Shown here: positions 32,161-38,016 of the stretch, piece by piece
Numbering within the stretch: position 1 is the first letter of the stretch
How the letters are laid out: every line of letters starts with the position of its first letter
Assembly: GCA_937922795.1 (NCBI GenBank)
Contig: CALAJK010000003.1
Coordinates: 1-38,078 of the forward strand
Length of the DNA stretch: 38,078 nt
Source of the DNA: an uncultured Anaerolineae bacterium
Lineage (GTDB): Bacteria > Chloroflexota > Anaerolineae > Aggregatilineales > Phototrophicaceae
Reading direction: 5' to 3'
Program-made: the position numbers and the translations under genes
Notes under the pieces: model-generated
Databases searched by the model: none
Seen by the model: only the letters and a program-made list of their open reading frames with translations
Told to the model about the DNA's origin: nothing

Positions 32161-32673
32161 ATGGGCGCAGACGAGCATCGCCAGCAGGCCGGCCGCGGGC
32201 CGGTGACGGTCGCGATCGTCACCGTCAGCGACACGCGCACGCCGGAGACCGACCAAAACCGCCTCTACATTGAAGGCCAAATGGCTGCCCTGGGACACCG
32301 GGTGGCGACTTACCGACTCATCAAAGACGAACCCGACCAGGTAGCGGCTGTCATCGATGAACTGACGGCGCTGCCCGACGTGCAGATCATCCTCTTCAAC
32401 GGCGGCACCGGCATCAGCCCGCGCGACACGACTTATGACGTCGTCAGCCGATATCTAGAGAAGACGCTGCCCGGCTTTGGGGAACTGTTCCGGCTGCTCA
32501 GCTACCAGCAGGTGGGCGCGGCAGCCATGCTCAGCCGGGCGACCGCCGGCGTATGCCGGGGCAAGGTGATCGTGTCCATGCCCGGCAGCCCCAACGCCGT
32601 GCAGACGGCGCTGGAGCAACTCATCCTGCCGGAGATCAACCACCTGGCCTGGGAGATCGCCCGCGCCGGCTGA
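32161..32673 (+). CDS. moaB: MoaB/MogA-type molybdopterin protein
   Basis: A 170-residue protein with the MoaB/Mog fold: [17 protein letters not shown] at the N-terminus, [17 protein letters not shown] binding molybdopterin, [15 protein letters not shown], and [20 protein letters not shown] near the end. Proteins of this family adenylylate molybdopterin ahead of molybdate insertion (Mog and some MoaB), though MoaB of E. coli is dispensable. AGGAG nine bases ahead supports the ATG. No other cofactor-synthesis genes are nearby; the possible oxyanion importer at 16-20 kb is the only functional link in the window. A hairpin follows the stop. Confidence 0.93.
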
Positions 32674-32707
32674 CGGCCATTTTATCCCAACCCGGCTTGT
32701 GAAATCG

Positions 32708-32746
32708 ACGGCGGCCGGCCGATATCCCAACCGCGCTGGCCGCCGT
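32708..32746 (+). terminator. Hairpin after moaB
   Basis: ACGGCGGCC (32708-32716) and GGCCGCCGT (32738-32746) form a 9-bp stem extended by three further pairs, with a loop of about 15 bases, followed by TATTT. It probably ends moaB transcription before the origin-like region. Confidence 0.5.
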
Positions 32747-32793
32747 TATTTCCCCACTTTTACCAAGTAAGCGCAGCGGTAACTGAAGATGCC

Positions 32794-33087
32794 TGTAGAT
32801 AACTGGTCGAAAACATTACCCAAATTGTCGATAACCTGTCGAAAACTAGGGCGCGCCTGTCGAAAACTTTCGGTTCAGAAAACGGTTTACGCTGCGCCGG
32901 CCGGGGTGAACTGTCGAAACTGTCGAAACAGCTGCCAGTTTTCGACAGGCAGGCTGTCGAAAACTTGAATCCCACATATCCCGCAAATTTTGGAAATGTC
33001 TGGGTTATCGCCGCGGCTCAGCGCGCTGATTGGGAAAAGTATCCCACATCCTCGCCGTTCGATCGGAAGTTTTCGACAGTTTCGACA
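32794..33087. repeat. Eleven DnaA-box-like 9-mers
   Basis: Read in box orientation the sites are: TTATCTACA at 32794-32802 (-), TTTTCGACC 32805-32813 (-), TTATCGACA 32826-32834 (-), TTTTCGACA 32837-32845 (-), 32858-32866 (-), 32939-32947 (+), 32955-32963 (-) and 33070-33078 (+), and GTTTCGACA 32912-32920 (-), 32921-32929 (-) and 33079-33087 (+). TTATCTACA and TTATCGACA each differ from the canonical TTATCCACA at one base and TTTTCGACA at two. The first five starts are spaced 11, 21, 11 and 21 bp, about one and two helical turns. Most copies extend to GTTTTCGACAG. Confidence 0.85.
32937..32965. repeat. Palindrome of two facing boxes
   Basis: AGTTTTCGACAG and CTGTCGAAAACT form perfect 12-bp inverted arms around the 5-base centre GCAGG. 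Two box-like 9-mers face each other within it. Confidence 0.85.
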
Positions 33088-33125
33088 GGCCCTACTAATA
33101 CGACTATTTTGATTCAGAAAGAGAC
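33070..33125 (+). other. Unwinding-region-like element: tandem boxes, GC spacer, CTA triplets, A+T-rich tract
   Basis: Two abutting 9-mers, TTTTCGACA and GTTTCGACA (33070-33087), are followed by GGCC (33088-33091). In register from 33092 come CTA, CTA, ATA, CGA, CTA and TTT, then A+T-rich sequence. CTA on this strand is 3'-GAT-5' on the other, the DnaA-trio unit described in the B. subtilis origin, where it also lies next to tandem boxes and a short GC-rich spacer. The match is by eye and two of the five triplets deviate. Confidence 0.5.
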
Positions 33126-33244
33126 TCTACGAGGCTGATTCACCTCGACCCTGTGAGCACGCGACTGATACCGTGATATCCCAAGCGATGTTACACTTCT
33201 TCGGCGGCGATGATCACAAAAACCATGTGCGAGGGTGTAGATTG

Positions 33245-34513
33245 ATGACGCGTTCATCTGAAGAAGGATCGACGGCGCGGCTGGAGCGCCGGGCGGCCGT
33301 CCTGGCGCGGTTGGCGGAGATCAGCCTGGCGCTGAACTCCACCCTGGAACAAAGCGATCTGCTCAGGCTACTGATGGATGCCGCCGCAGAAATCACCGAC
33401 TCGGAAACCGCCTCCGTGCTGCTGTGGGACCCGCGCACGCGCGAGCTGCGCTTCGTGGCCACCACCTCGCAGCAGTCAGAATTGAATCTGATCGGCCAGC
33501 CGGTGCCGCTGGAAGGCAGCATCGCCGGCACAATCCTGCTGGAGAACCGTATCGTGCAGGTGGACGATGTCCGCGGCGATCCGCGTCACTACAGCAAGGT
33601 CGGCGAGCAGTTTCAGTTCTACACCCGGTCGCTGCTGGGCGCGCCCATGACTGTGCAAGACCGGGCGATCGGCGTGCTGGAAGTGATCAACAAGCGGACG
33701 CTGCCCTGGACGCCGGATGACCACGAGTATTTGTCCGTGTTGGCAGCGCAGGCGGCGGTGGCGATCGAACGCGCCCAGTTGGTGGCGGCGCTGCAGCAGG
33801 CCAACGCGGAATTGAGCGAGCTGGATAAGCTGAAGAATGACTTCATCGCCATCGCGTCGCACGAGCTGCGCACGCCGCTGGCGGTCATCATGGGCTACGC
33901 CAGCTTCCTGCAGGATGAGGCGGAAGGCGAGACCGGCGAGCTGGTGGCAAAAGTGCTGGCCAGCGGGATGCAGCTCCGACACATCATCGAAGACCTGACT
34001 AACCTGCGCTACTTGCAGCAGAAGCCGTCCGAGCTGCACCGCGAGCGCCTGCTGCTAGCCAGCTTGGTGCACGACGCCGTCCAAGATGTCGCCAGCCTGG
34101 TAGAGGCCAAAGGCCACCGTCTGACGTTGGAGCTGCCGGCGGACGCTCTAGAGATCGACGGCGATCAGATTCGGCTGGTGATGGCGCTGACCAACATCCT
34201 GCATAACGCGGTGCGCTTCACGCCCGATGGCGGCCAGATCACCGTGCGCGCCGCGCGCCGCGCGTCCGATGAGGCCTGGGTGACGATCACCGACAACGGC
34301 ATCGGCATCCCGCCCGACAAGCTGGAACGCATCTTCGACAAGTTCTACCAGGTGGAAGACCATATGACCCGCCGCTACGGCGGCCTGGGGATCGGCCTGA
34401 GCATCGCGCGGGCAGTGGTCGAGGCGCACGGCGGCCGGGTGTGGGCTGACAGCCCTGGACTCGGCCAGGGAGCCTCCTTTTTTGTGGCGCTGCCGCTGGC
34501 AGAGACGGGCTAA
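33245..34513 (+). CDS. Soluble GAF-domain histidine kinase
   Basis: The 422-residue kinase has no membrane segment. A GAF domain (about 25-175) ends GVLEVINKRTL, a typical GAF closing strand. It is joined by a short coiled coil to a HisKA domain with phosphoacceptor H206 (IASHELRTPLAVIMGY) and a HATPase domain with NILHNAVRFTP, DNGIGIPPDKL, FDKFYQ and GLGIGLSIAR. It should sense a cytoplasmic ligand or redox state, but there is no response regulator beside it. The ATG at 33245 follows GAGGGT at eight bases. Longer in-frame starts at 33188 (ATG) and 33173 (GTG) lack ribosome sites and begin with sequence unlike a GAF kinase. Confidence 0.93.
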   Translation: MTRSSEEGSTARLERRAAVLARLAEISLALNSTLEQSDLLRLLMDAAAEITDSETASVLLWDPRTRELRFVATTSQQSELNLIGQPVPLEGSIAGTILLENRIVQVDDVRGDPRHYSKVGEQFQFYTRSLLGAPMTVQDRAIGVLEVINKRTLPWTPDDHEYLSVLAAQAAVAIERAQLVAALQQANAELSELDKLKNDFIAIASHELRTPLAVIMGYASFLQDEAEGETGELVAKVLASGMQLRHIIEDLTNLRYLQQKPSELHRERLLLASLVHDAVQDVASLVEAKGHRLTLELPADALEIDGDQIRLVMALTNILHNAVRFTPDGGQITVRAARRASDEAWVTITDNGIGIPPDKLERIFDKFYQVEDHMTRRYGGLGIGLSIARAVVEAHGGRVWADSPGLGQGASFFVALPLAETG

Positions 34514-34565
34514 ACCGACTACACTTGGAGCCATCAACGGTTGTCTAACGGCGGGAGGAACGGCC

Positions 34566-35255
34566 ATGAGCCTTGCGTTTACCTGGTTGGGACACTCCGC
34601 TTTTGCGCTGGACATCGACGGCCACGCCGTGCTGTTCGATCCGTTTCTGACGGGCAATCCGCTGGCTGCCGCGTCAGCCGACGAAGTGCGGGCGGAGATC
34701 ATTTTCCTGTCGCACGCGCACGGCGACCACGTGGGCGACACGGTGGCGATCGCCCAGCGCACCGGCGCTAAAGTGGTCGCCAACTTCGAAATCTGCAACT
34801 GGTTGAGCCACAAGGGCGTGCAGAACACGCACGGCCAGAACCCAGGCGGCGGTTACAACCACGGCTTCGTCCATGCGAAGTGGACGGTGGCGTTTCACAG
34901 TTCGTCGTTCCCGGATGGCAGCTACGGCGGCGAGCCGAACGGCTTCGTCCTGACCACGCCCGGCGGCCAGCGGCTGTACTTCGCCGGCGACACGGCGCTG
35001 TTCAGCGACATGAAGCTCATCGGCGACATGGGGCTGGATGTCGCCTTCCTGCCCATCGGCGACAACTATACCATGGGGCCGGACGACTCGATCCAGGCTG
35101 TGCATTTCCTGCGGCCGCGGCTGGTCGTGCCGATGCACTACAAGACCTTCCCAGTGATCGACCAGGATCCCGGCCGGTGGGCGAATCGCATCAGCAACGA
35201 GACTGACGCCACCCCGATCGTGCTCGATCCCGGCCAGACGTATCACCTGGCGTAG
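34566..35255 (+). CDS. UPF0173-type metallo-beta-lactamase-fold hydrolase
   Basis: A 229-residue protein of the UPF0173 group (YtkL-like): N-terminal FTWLGHSAFALDIDG, metal motif H50-A-H52-G-D54-H55, a second metal region YFAGDTALFSDM, and PMHYKTFPVI carrying the last His. Such proteins bind two metal ions and hydrolyse ester- or amide-type bonds in an unknown metabolite. The conserved HKGVQNTHGQNPGGGYN insert is typical of this group rather than of lactamases. GGGAGGAA five bases before the ATG defines the start. It lies 52 bp downstream of the GAF kinase and converges on the CHASE4 sensor gene. Confidence 0.92.
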   Translation: MSLAFTWLGHSAFALDIDGHAVLFDPFLTGNPLAAASADEVRAEIIFLSHAHGDHVGDTVAIAQRTGAKVVANFEICNWLSHKGVQNTHGQNPGGGYNHGFVHAKWTVAFHSSSFPDGSYGGEPNGFVLTTPGGQRLYFAGDTALFSDMKLIGDMGLDVAFLPIGDNYTMGPDDSIQAVHFLRPRLVVPMHYKTFPVIDQDPGRWANRISNETDATPIVLDPGQTYHLA

Positions 35256-36994: not shown

Positions 36995-37008
36995 AGGACT
37001 TACGCAAA
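36995..37008 (+). repeat. Left terminal inverted repeat of the IS
   Basis: AGGACTTACGCAAA, an exact inverse of bases 38064-38077. The transposase stop codon (37000-37002) lies inside it. Confidence 0.9.
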
Positions 37009-38016
37009 TTGCATTCGGATAGCGGGTGAACGCAATTGGGAGCGCATGTAATCATCCAGCAAGCCTTGTTTAAGCTGATAAACGGTAGAAGCGGTTTCTT
37101 GAGCCACTTGTTTAAGACGAACCCAAACCAGGATGGCGCAGGCGATGTGGTTGCGCTGGATACGAGCTAGGCGGCACTGACAGCCTTCAATGCCAGTGGT
37201 TTGCTTGGTTTCCCGGTGAAACTGCTCGATCTTCCAACGTAGGTCACACACCTCTTGCGTGGCCTGCGAGGAGTCCTGAGCCATATCGTTAGTGGCGATA
37301 TAGTCCGTGCGCTGGGCAGACAGCACCAACCGGAACAGTTTCACCTGATGACCTTTGGGGAAGTCCTTGATGTGCAGTAGCTTGCCATGCTGGATTTCAT
37401 GTTCGCTCCACGTCAAGCTATCCACCCGCTGATAGCCGCGTTCGCCGCCGGTCTCGTCCACCTGGCGATTGTCCTTGAGGGGACAGTAGTAGACCTTGCC
37501 CAAGCGTTCGATGTGCAGCATCAGCTTGCGTTCAGCATACCAGCTATCCATCAAGACCCCGCGAAACGGCAAGCCCTTATCAGTCAGCGCATGATCCAAC
37601 ATCTCGCGCACATGGTCGAGCTTGCTTTTGCCATCCCGATCCGGGTCATAAATGCGGTAGTCAATGATCCAGAACTGCCGCGTGTCCGGGTTGAGGTACA
37701 CGCAGGTCACGACCCCGATGCCCTTAATCACGGCGTGCGCATTCCCACTGTATTGCCGTCGTACCAGTTCGATCTTGAACGAACTGCGATGATCCAGCAC
37801 CGTGTCGTCGAAGACCAGGTAGCCATGCTCACTCCGCACCACGTGCCCTCGCACACTCTCCCACACCATCCGGGCGGTGAGTTTGTCCTCCTCCAAATAG
37901 CGTTTCACCGCGTCGTGGCTAAAGCCTGGGCTGTGCTCAGCAAAATAGGTCAGCGTGTAGTTCGTTTGGCTCACCAACAGAAATTGACAATAATCCAGTC
38001 GCGTGACTTTGCTCAT
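37000..38016 (-). CDS. DDE transposase (IS4/IS701-like)
   Basis: The 338-residue transposase has a recognisable DDE triad: D70/D71 in LVFDDTVLDH, a second Asp in GVLMDSWYAERKLM near residue 160, and Glu in DLRWKIEQFHRETKQTTG near residue 270, followed by CQCRLARIQRNHIACAILVW. The Glu sits in an IS4-type context with a following helix. It excises and reinserts its element using the 14-bp end repeats. Codon use is less GC-extreme and AT content higher than in neighbouring genes, consistent with recent arrival. The reading frame is complete, starting 62 bp inside the right end, so the copy is probably active or recently so. Confidence 0.92.
   Translation of the reverse strand: MSKVTRLDYCQFLLVSQTNYTLTYFAEHSPGFSHDAVKRYLEEDKLTARMVWESVRGHVVRSEHGYLVFDDTVLDHRSSFKIELVRRQYSGNAHAVIKGIGVVTCVYLNPDTRQFWIIDYRIYDPDRDGKSKLDHVREMLDHALTDKGLPFRGVLMDSWYAERKLMLHIERLGKVYYCPLKDNRQVDETGGERGYQRVDSLTWSEHEIQHGKLLHIKDFPKGHQVKLFRLVLSAQRTDYIATNDMAQDSSQATQEVCDLRWKIEQFHRETKQTTGIEGCQCRLARIQRNHIACAILVWVRLKQVAQETASTVYQLKQGLLDDYMRSQLRSPAIRMQFA

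Follow-up and report, generated by a model that had tools for sequence, protein, structure and literature searches.

A candidate chromosomal origin of a Chloroflexota bacterium whose DnaA boxes appear recoded in step with the DnaA recognition helix

Introduction

Is the 499-bp gap between a moaB-like gene and a histidine-kinase gene of an uncultured Anaerolineae bacterium the origin of chromosome replication, and if so, what does it mean that its DnaA-box-like sites depart from the familiar word? The search for bacterial origins mostly rests on boxes resembling TTWTNCACA and on an invariant Asp of the DnaA helix, and the pairing of DnaA with its box is usually treated as near-universal. A first-pass annotation of the window, by which we mean the whole stretch of DNA analysed (38,078 nucleotides, the whole of contig C3 in an assembly of 127 contigs), had proposed that the gap is the oriC of the host, with a TTTTCGACA-type word as its main box. 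Here we examine the gap itself, its counterparts in 151 genomes of the order and the DnaA proteins of these genomes.

Results

An array of eleven DnaA-box-like sites

The gap follows moaB, which ends at 32673, and precedes a kinase ORF that starts at 33173 or 33245. Its GC content is 0.52, compared with 0.595-0.725 in 2-kb windows across the whole window. It contains exactly eleven box-like 9-mers, which span 32794-33087 (Table 1), eight on the minus strand and three on the plus strand, and the left group has start-to-start distances of 11, 21, 11 and 21 bp. The core TCGACA is found in nine of them, with TCTACA at 32794 and TCGACC at 32805. An exact listing thus reproduces the cores, orientations and spacing that the first-pass annotation had reported for eleven 9-mers in 294 bp, and the array lies far above chance: the pattern NTWTNNACA has 10 matches in the 499-bp gap against 0.40 expected, with a maximum of 5 in 5000 first-order Markov simulations. 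The core TCGACA occurs nine times inside the gap and 10 times across the remainder of the window, with at most two copies per 294 bp among the stretches examined outside the array. Allowing one mismatch, TTTTCGACA has 14 matches in the window, 10 of them within the array, a total reached in none of 100 whole-window shuffles, and all four matches to paired TGTCGAAA sites no more than 30 bp apart in the organism's own genome (3.6 Mb, 85% complete) fall at the array.

The frame formed by TTWT (positions 1-4) and ACA (positions 7-9) is exact in seven of the eleven sites, three of the others starting with G and one ending with C. Two copies, TTATCTACA and TTATCGACA, differ from TTATCCACA by a single base, as had been noticed before, and in both the sole difference is at position 6. 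This position is never C in the array (0/11; G in ten sites and T in one), and the E. coli-type pattern TTWTNCACA is accordingly absent from it. Judged by its sequence, the box in the window is a recoded one, in which the frame TTWT..ACA has been kept and the central CC has become CG. The array is made up of TTTTCGACA and near-TTTTCGACA words, which supports the main box proposed for the host.

Table 1. Coordinates of the predicted origin features and of neighbouring genes in the window
Feature	Position	Strand	Basis
moaB-like gene, local neighbour only	32161..32673	+	PF00994
Candidate oriC intergenic region, moaB to histidine-kinase gene	32674..33172	.	Sequence; similar layout in relatives
DnaA box (predicted) TTATCTACA	32794..32802	-	Sequence; position kept in five congeners
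Box (predicted) TTTTCGACC	32805..32813	-	Sequence
Box (predicted) TTATCGACA	32826..32834	-	Sequence; congener alignment
Box (predicted) TTTTCGACA	32837..32845	-	Sequence; congener alignment
Box (predicted) TTTTCGACA	32858..32866	-	Sequence; congener alignment
Box (predicted) GTTTCGACA, abutting pair, first	32912..32920	-	Sequence; pair kept in relatives
Box (predicted) GTTTCGACA, abutting pair, second	32921..32929	-	Sequence; congener alignment
Box (predicted) TTTTCGACA, opposite orientation	32939..32947	+	Sequence; congener alignment
Box (predicted) TTTTCGACA	32955..32963	-	Sequence; congener alignment
Box (predicted) TTTTCGACA, unwinding module, upstream	33070..33078	+	Sequence; module pattern in relatives
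Box (predicted) GTTTCGACA, unwinding module, downstream	33079..33087	+	Sequence; module pattern in relatives
GC-rich spacer GGCC	33088..33091	.	Sequence; average for the element 4 bp (PMC8287927, accessible text)
DnaA-trios CTA CTA ATA CGA CTA	33092..33106	+	Sequence; TAGTAG-plus-tandem-box pattern in relatives
GAF histidine kinase gene, conserved neighbour, unwinding side	33245..34513	+	Pfam GAF, HisKA, HATPase_c
Metallo-beta-lactamase-fold hydrolase, often next neighbour	34566..35255	+	Pfam; relatives' loci
DDE transposase ORF near contig end	37000-38016		Pfam scan

Two further words recur in the gap. A 12-bp block, CATTACCCAAAT, lies between two boxes at 32814-32825 and is identical in six aligned genomes; words of this block are found again in 14 or all of the 15 genus origins. 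The second word, TATCCCA/TGGGATA, is found at 32683, 32723 and 33040 in the window, in all 15 genus origins (59 copies) and in 32 of 33 other origins of family f1 (131 copies), and is absent from the 40 top words of eight f7 origins. It possibly marks the sites of a second origin-binding protein.

A predicted unwinding module at the right end of the array

At the right end of the array (33070-33106), TTTTCGACA and GTTTCGACA abut exactly with a 9-bp spacing and are followed by GGCC and then by trios that read 3'-GAT GAT TAT GCT GAT on the other strand. The upstream box lies 13 bp from the trios, and GC over 33088-33130 is 0.395. The rules for a basal unwinding system, in the accessible text of PMC8287927, ask for one or two boxes, a spacer of up to 16 bp and at least three NAN trios; the commonest box-to-trio distance is 13 bp, the GC spacer measures about 4 bp on average, and a species-specific box is allowed for divergent species. 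With such a box, all of these elements are present in 33070-33106, and by the published rules the right end of the array is predicted to be a complete basal unwinding module (PMC8287927). The incC/BUS origins of Bacillus subtilis likewise have tandem DnaA boxes, a short GC spacer, 3'-GAT trios, distal boxes upstream and 13 bp between the upstream box and the trios, as far as described in the accessible parts of PMC6669920 and PMC8287927. The window differs from them in the box centre, which is CG and not CC, in the exact abutment of the proximal pair and in the position of the origin, which is not beside dnaA in its own genome.

Conservation of the array and of its neighbourhood

The module was sought in the 151 genomes of the order with a pattern that leaves the box centre open (TAGTAG, up to 8 bases, TGTNNAAANTGTNNA). 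This tandem box plus TAGTAG was found in 42 of them, including 15 of the 16 congeneric genomes, the host among them, and a looser pattern found the module in 61 of the 151. The congener arrays keep the order of sites, from the left group through the abutting pair, the inverted box and a further box to the module; an array absent or unconserved in close relatives, the outcome named beforehand as telling against an origin, did not appear. A scan of a genome collection, which may omit records very near the window, gave seven matches to the CG-type module, six of them in Chloroflexota assemblies titled Anaerolineae, Anaerolineaceae or Chloroflexi. The seventh, in Enterococcus alcedinis, lies inside an open reading frame and was treated as chance.

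As the first-pass annotation had stated, the array is not next to dnaA: the host gene (PF08299, E 3e-28) is on contig C63, and adjacency to dnaA, a common but not required trait of oriC, is thus absent in the own genome. In family f3, dnaA adjoins the array at all five module loci found (G018, G024, G064, G070 and G072), which come from 5 of 18 f3 genomes, the remaining ones having given no module, and the gene order in G070 and G024 is kinase, array, dnaA. Since dnaA lies beside the f3 arrays and the kinase is shared, the simplest reading is that the array in the window's family occupies the f3 locus and that its dnaA flank was lost or relocated. The f7 origins, compared by eye, closely resemble the window in box number, order, orientation, the 11- and 21-bp spacings, the tandem pair and the trios. 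They differ from it in having mostly canonical TTATCCACA boxes and, in six of the seven f7 genomes with a known residue among the 64 tabulated below, Asp433 in DnaA, the other (G020) combining Asn with CG. The f4 origins have a related layout, again by eye, in which the box pair falls on the opposite side of the inverted box.

The moaB/kinase junction, which had been proposed as a landmark, is conserved on one side. By tblastn, the kinase adjoins the array at 10 of 17 relatives' loci in a first set and at 27 of 53 in a later one, where many loci are short, so that a miss does not amount to absence. No match to moaB was found at E 1e-8 across the 17 loci, and adjacency to moaB was therefore dropped as an origin marker. 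The GAF kinase, often with the metallo-hydrolase gene (33245-35255 in the window), adjoins the origin in families f1, f3 and f4, which suggests a tie to the control of initiation or simply an effect of gene dosage near the origin.

GC skew

The cumulative skew of the window has its minimum at 33,202, which is valid as a minimum only within 38 kb because the own assembly is in 127 contigs. The skew was also examined in relatives. In G119, on an 863-kb contig, 17 of 17 pieces to the left of the array are negative and five of five to the right are positive. Within the contiguous 60 kb of this contig, the cumulative skew is lowest at 675,682, and the module lies about 0.5 kb away (675,137). A local minimum in G124 (596,211) lies about 0.4 kb from the module (596,652), in a contig where the skew changes sign several times far to the left of the array, and G089 has a local minimum 5 kb from its array. 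Eight shorter loci (10-20 kb) were mixed: the skew changes sign across the array, negative to positive, in G150, G116, G140 and G129 and does not in G061, G115, G130 and G143. The sign change expected of an oriC is thus clear in G119, local in G124 and not clean everywhere. A rival minimum elsewhere, accompanied by a different box cluster, did not appear.

Box centres and DnaA residues across the order

The host DnaA keeps the equivalents of R399, P423, H434 and H439 (E. coli numbering) and has Ala in place of D433 and Ser in place of T435. The changed positions are among the base-contacting residues listed in the accessible text of PMC7561715, and residues 433-434 are called a highly conservative pair in that of PMC5043019. 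Two centre-agnostic patterns picked out 64 of the 151 genomes, and in these TTWT-NN-ACA boxes were counted over a stretch of at most 620 bp running from the module; the 87 genomes matched by neither pattern include 28 of genus g6 with no DnaA match. Residue 433 is lacking for five of the 64 (G026, G089, G129, G146 and G148). The resulting table holds 722 boxes, with a median of 11 per genome and a mean share of the commonest centre of 0.67. The centres are GA (266), CG (131), CA (96), GC (67), CC (64), CT (48), AG (23) and others (27), and the 64 origins favour lineage-specific ones, namely CG, GA, GC, CT, AG or CA. CC accounts for 49 of 61 boxes in the six genomes with Asp433, all from f7, for 8 of 604 in the 53 genomes with another residue and for 7 of 57, all in G026, in the five genomes where the residue is lacking.

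Individual residues go with particular centres to differing degrees. Asn433 is found with CA in five of nine genomes; of the others, G020 and G070 favour CG, and G018 and G064 have mixed centres led by CC. Lys433 is found with GA in eight of nine genomes (tied with CA in G094) and with CT in G024, and Arg433 with GA in two genomes and GC in one (G044). One Asp433 genome, G007, is an exception with seven CA boxes and four CC, the Ser433 genomes have four different commonest centres and the Thr433 genomes two. In a first table of 56 genomes, the link between residue 433 and the commonest base at position 6 exceeded all 10,000 label shuffles, in a test that ignores kinship and on rows of which part had been found by box word; finds specific to a box word occur only in that table (G012 and G031 in f4; G008, G015, G021, G027 and G038 in f8; and G014, G137 and G023). 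A one-residue code (Asp-CC, Asn-CA, Lys/Arg-GA, Ala-CG) was near-perfect in this partly box-selected table and holds only in part on the centre-agnostic set, where G020 pairs Asn with CG, not CA, and the f3 genomes with Asn are mixed. The link between residue 433 and box centre is a weaker association, and no simple code.

Close pairs of genomes give a finer view. The DnaA proteins of G028 and G116 differ at four of about 165 C-terminal residues, one difference being in the recognition helix (S435T) and the other three outside it. In an alignment of their origins, all seven CG sites common to G116 and G061 are CT in G028, and four CT sites are unchanged. The f7 sisters G042 and G020 (support 99 in a quick tree) have Asp433 with CC in 10 of 10 boxes and Asn433 with CG in seven of nine, respectively. 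On a tree of 59 DnaA C-termini, built with the helix columns removed, residue 433 must have changed at least 16 times and the box centre at least 20 times. Independent pairs on this tree ran on average 1.6 times the same way and 0.0 times the other way for Asp-CC, 1.5 and 0.0 for Asn-CA, 1.1 and 0.3 for Lys/Arg-GA, and 1.8 and 0.0 for Ser435 with CG, CA or AG; with two or three independent pairs per test, none of these can reach 0.05, and none is significant.

DnaA itself varies in number. Two matches to the DnaA C-terminal family were found in each of G036 and G042; the G042 copies, of which that on C4 was used here, differ in the helix and both have Asp433. Genus g6, in the window's family, has 34 genomes (for example G039, G058 and G065), and 28 of them lack the DnaA C-terminal family. 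A full DnaA query found nothing at E 1e-5 in 18 of these and weak matches to the AAA+ part only (E 1e-7 to 1e-5) in the other 10. The module patterns match none of the 28, and among the six g6 genomes with DnaA the open-centre pattern matches all and the looser one four. The dnaA-less assemblies hold 3.2-4.9 Mb, so that this looks like dnaA loss in non-reduced genomes. Such a loss is to our knowledge known only from cyanobacteria and symbionts. The cyanobacterial case is described in PMC7198777.

Discussion

The proposal that the gap is the oriC of the host is supported by the conservation of the array, by the skew switch in relatives, by the neighbouring dnaA at the f3 loci, by the closely similar f7 layout with canonical boxes and by the unwinding module. 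We put at about 0.88 the probability that 32674-33172 is the chromosomal oriC of this Chloroflexota bacterium, with a DnaA-box array, DnaA-trios and boxes recoded in step with the DnaA helix; that the region is a start site of chromosome copying is, from comparative sequence evidence, almost certain. As an origin it is of a known type; what is new is that a nearly universal box has apparently been recoded repeatedly, and often in concert. Across the order, the centre appears to have changed many times, often over most boxes of an origin at once, and in step with the replacement of Asp433 and with changes at T435.

Asp433 would read the amino group of the cytosine, a chemical reading that we partly infer and that partly belongs to general background; a direct statement of the base contacted by D433 was sought in the literature text and not found. 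Loss of Asp433 would remove the demand for C6, neighbouring residues would set a new preference, and the sites would converge on it. At the origin, DnaA would bind the phased array of about eleven boxes. Its loading would proceed from the tandem pair (33070-33087) over the GGCC spacer to the trios (33092-33106), where the duplex would open towards the kinase gene. The distal boxes would raise local DnaA and help to build the complex, as described for B. subtilis in the accessible part of PMC6669920.

It is reasonably probable, if clearly less so than the origin itself, that the pairing of DnaA with its box was recoded repeatedly within one order, the loss of Asp having freed position 6 and origins of about 11 sites having switched together (to CG, GA, GC, CT, AG or CA), giving related species different initiation specificities. 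The most serious competing account accepts the oriC and regards its boxes as degenerate: DnaA would tolerate any two central bases, mutation bias or gene conversion would make the centres drift, and the changes in DnaA would be unrelated. This we consider unlikely while giving it some weight, since many origins do mix two or three centres (G124 has four CG, four CA and two AG), one residue at 433 can pair with several centres and the test on the tree lacks power. Free drift, however, should leave CC and other dinucleotides common, whereas CC makes up 1 of 550 boxes in the 48 genomes of f1, and six non-CC centres account for 631 of all 722 boxes. Single origins, moreover, are uniform at 10/10 to 13/13 boxes (G088, G133, G138 and G089), and near-identical origins differ at every CG site.

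Two other readings, each very improbable, would deny the array its role as an origin. In one, the sites are operators at which a regulator controls the kinase and hydrolase genes downstream; the kinase does adjoin the array at many loci, but arrays are also present with no kinase detected in the examined stretch, and with dnaA (G072, G064 and G018) or the hydrolase (G086, G091 and G063) there instead, and operators would leave unexplained the skew switch, the trio module and the canonical TTATCCACA boxes in the similar layout of f7. The other takes the array for a DnaA-titrating or DnaA-reactivating cluster; such clusters do hold DnaA boxes at a distance from dnaA, but trios next to tandem boxes, a switch in skew and, in f3, a neighbouring dnaA are features of origins, and the own genome, at 85% completeness, contains no second cluster of paired TGTCGAAA sites. 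Least probable of all are iterons of an integrated plasmid-like replicon, which would fit repeated phased sites in both orientations and a transposase at 37000-38016 (itself a possible reason for the assembly break at that point), but no Rep or other replication-initiator family was found among the 24 window ORFs scanned with Pfam, similar arrays adjoin dnaA in f3 and the array persists across the genus.

The words TTTTCGACA, TTATCGACA, TGTCGAAAA, TGTCGATAA and TTTTGAACA do not occur in the literature full text searched, which excludes most subscription papers, and TTATCAACA is present there in two papers, in one of them as a predicted Cyanothece box; no account of Chloroflexota boxes of the recoded kind was found in the same literature. 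The origin of Thermotoga maritima is reported to have 12-bp boxes. There, as in the window, box and contact residues together depart from E. coli (residues in the accessible text of PMC7561715), but the motif is a longer one of another kind, whereas the order studied here keeps the 9-bp frame. The Epsilonproteobacteria have origins with boxes of the core TTCAC and a DnaA with an altered helix 5 (PMC5043019, accessible text). There, too, a clade-specific box is accompanied by changes to the same motif of the recognition helix, Ser435 included; A is said to be tolerated in place of C6, but a TTATAGACA site was not bound (PMC5043019). They differ in having a fixed T at position 5 and, mostly, an unchanged C6, as far as that text describes them, whereas in the window position 6 is the one replaced, and within its order the centre has apparently changed repeatedly.

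The order thus offers a natural series of origins of similar layout and different box words, each with its own DnaA gene and some in pairs a few residues apart. This opens to direct test how an essential initiator changes specificity jointly with its dozen or so sites. It also supplies the box words with which origins may be located in a large and mostly uncultured group.
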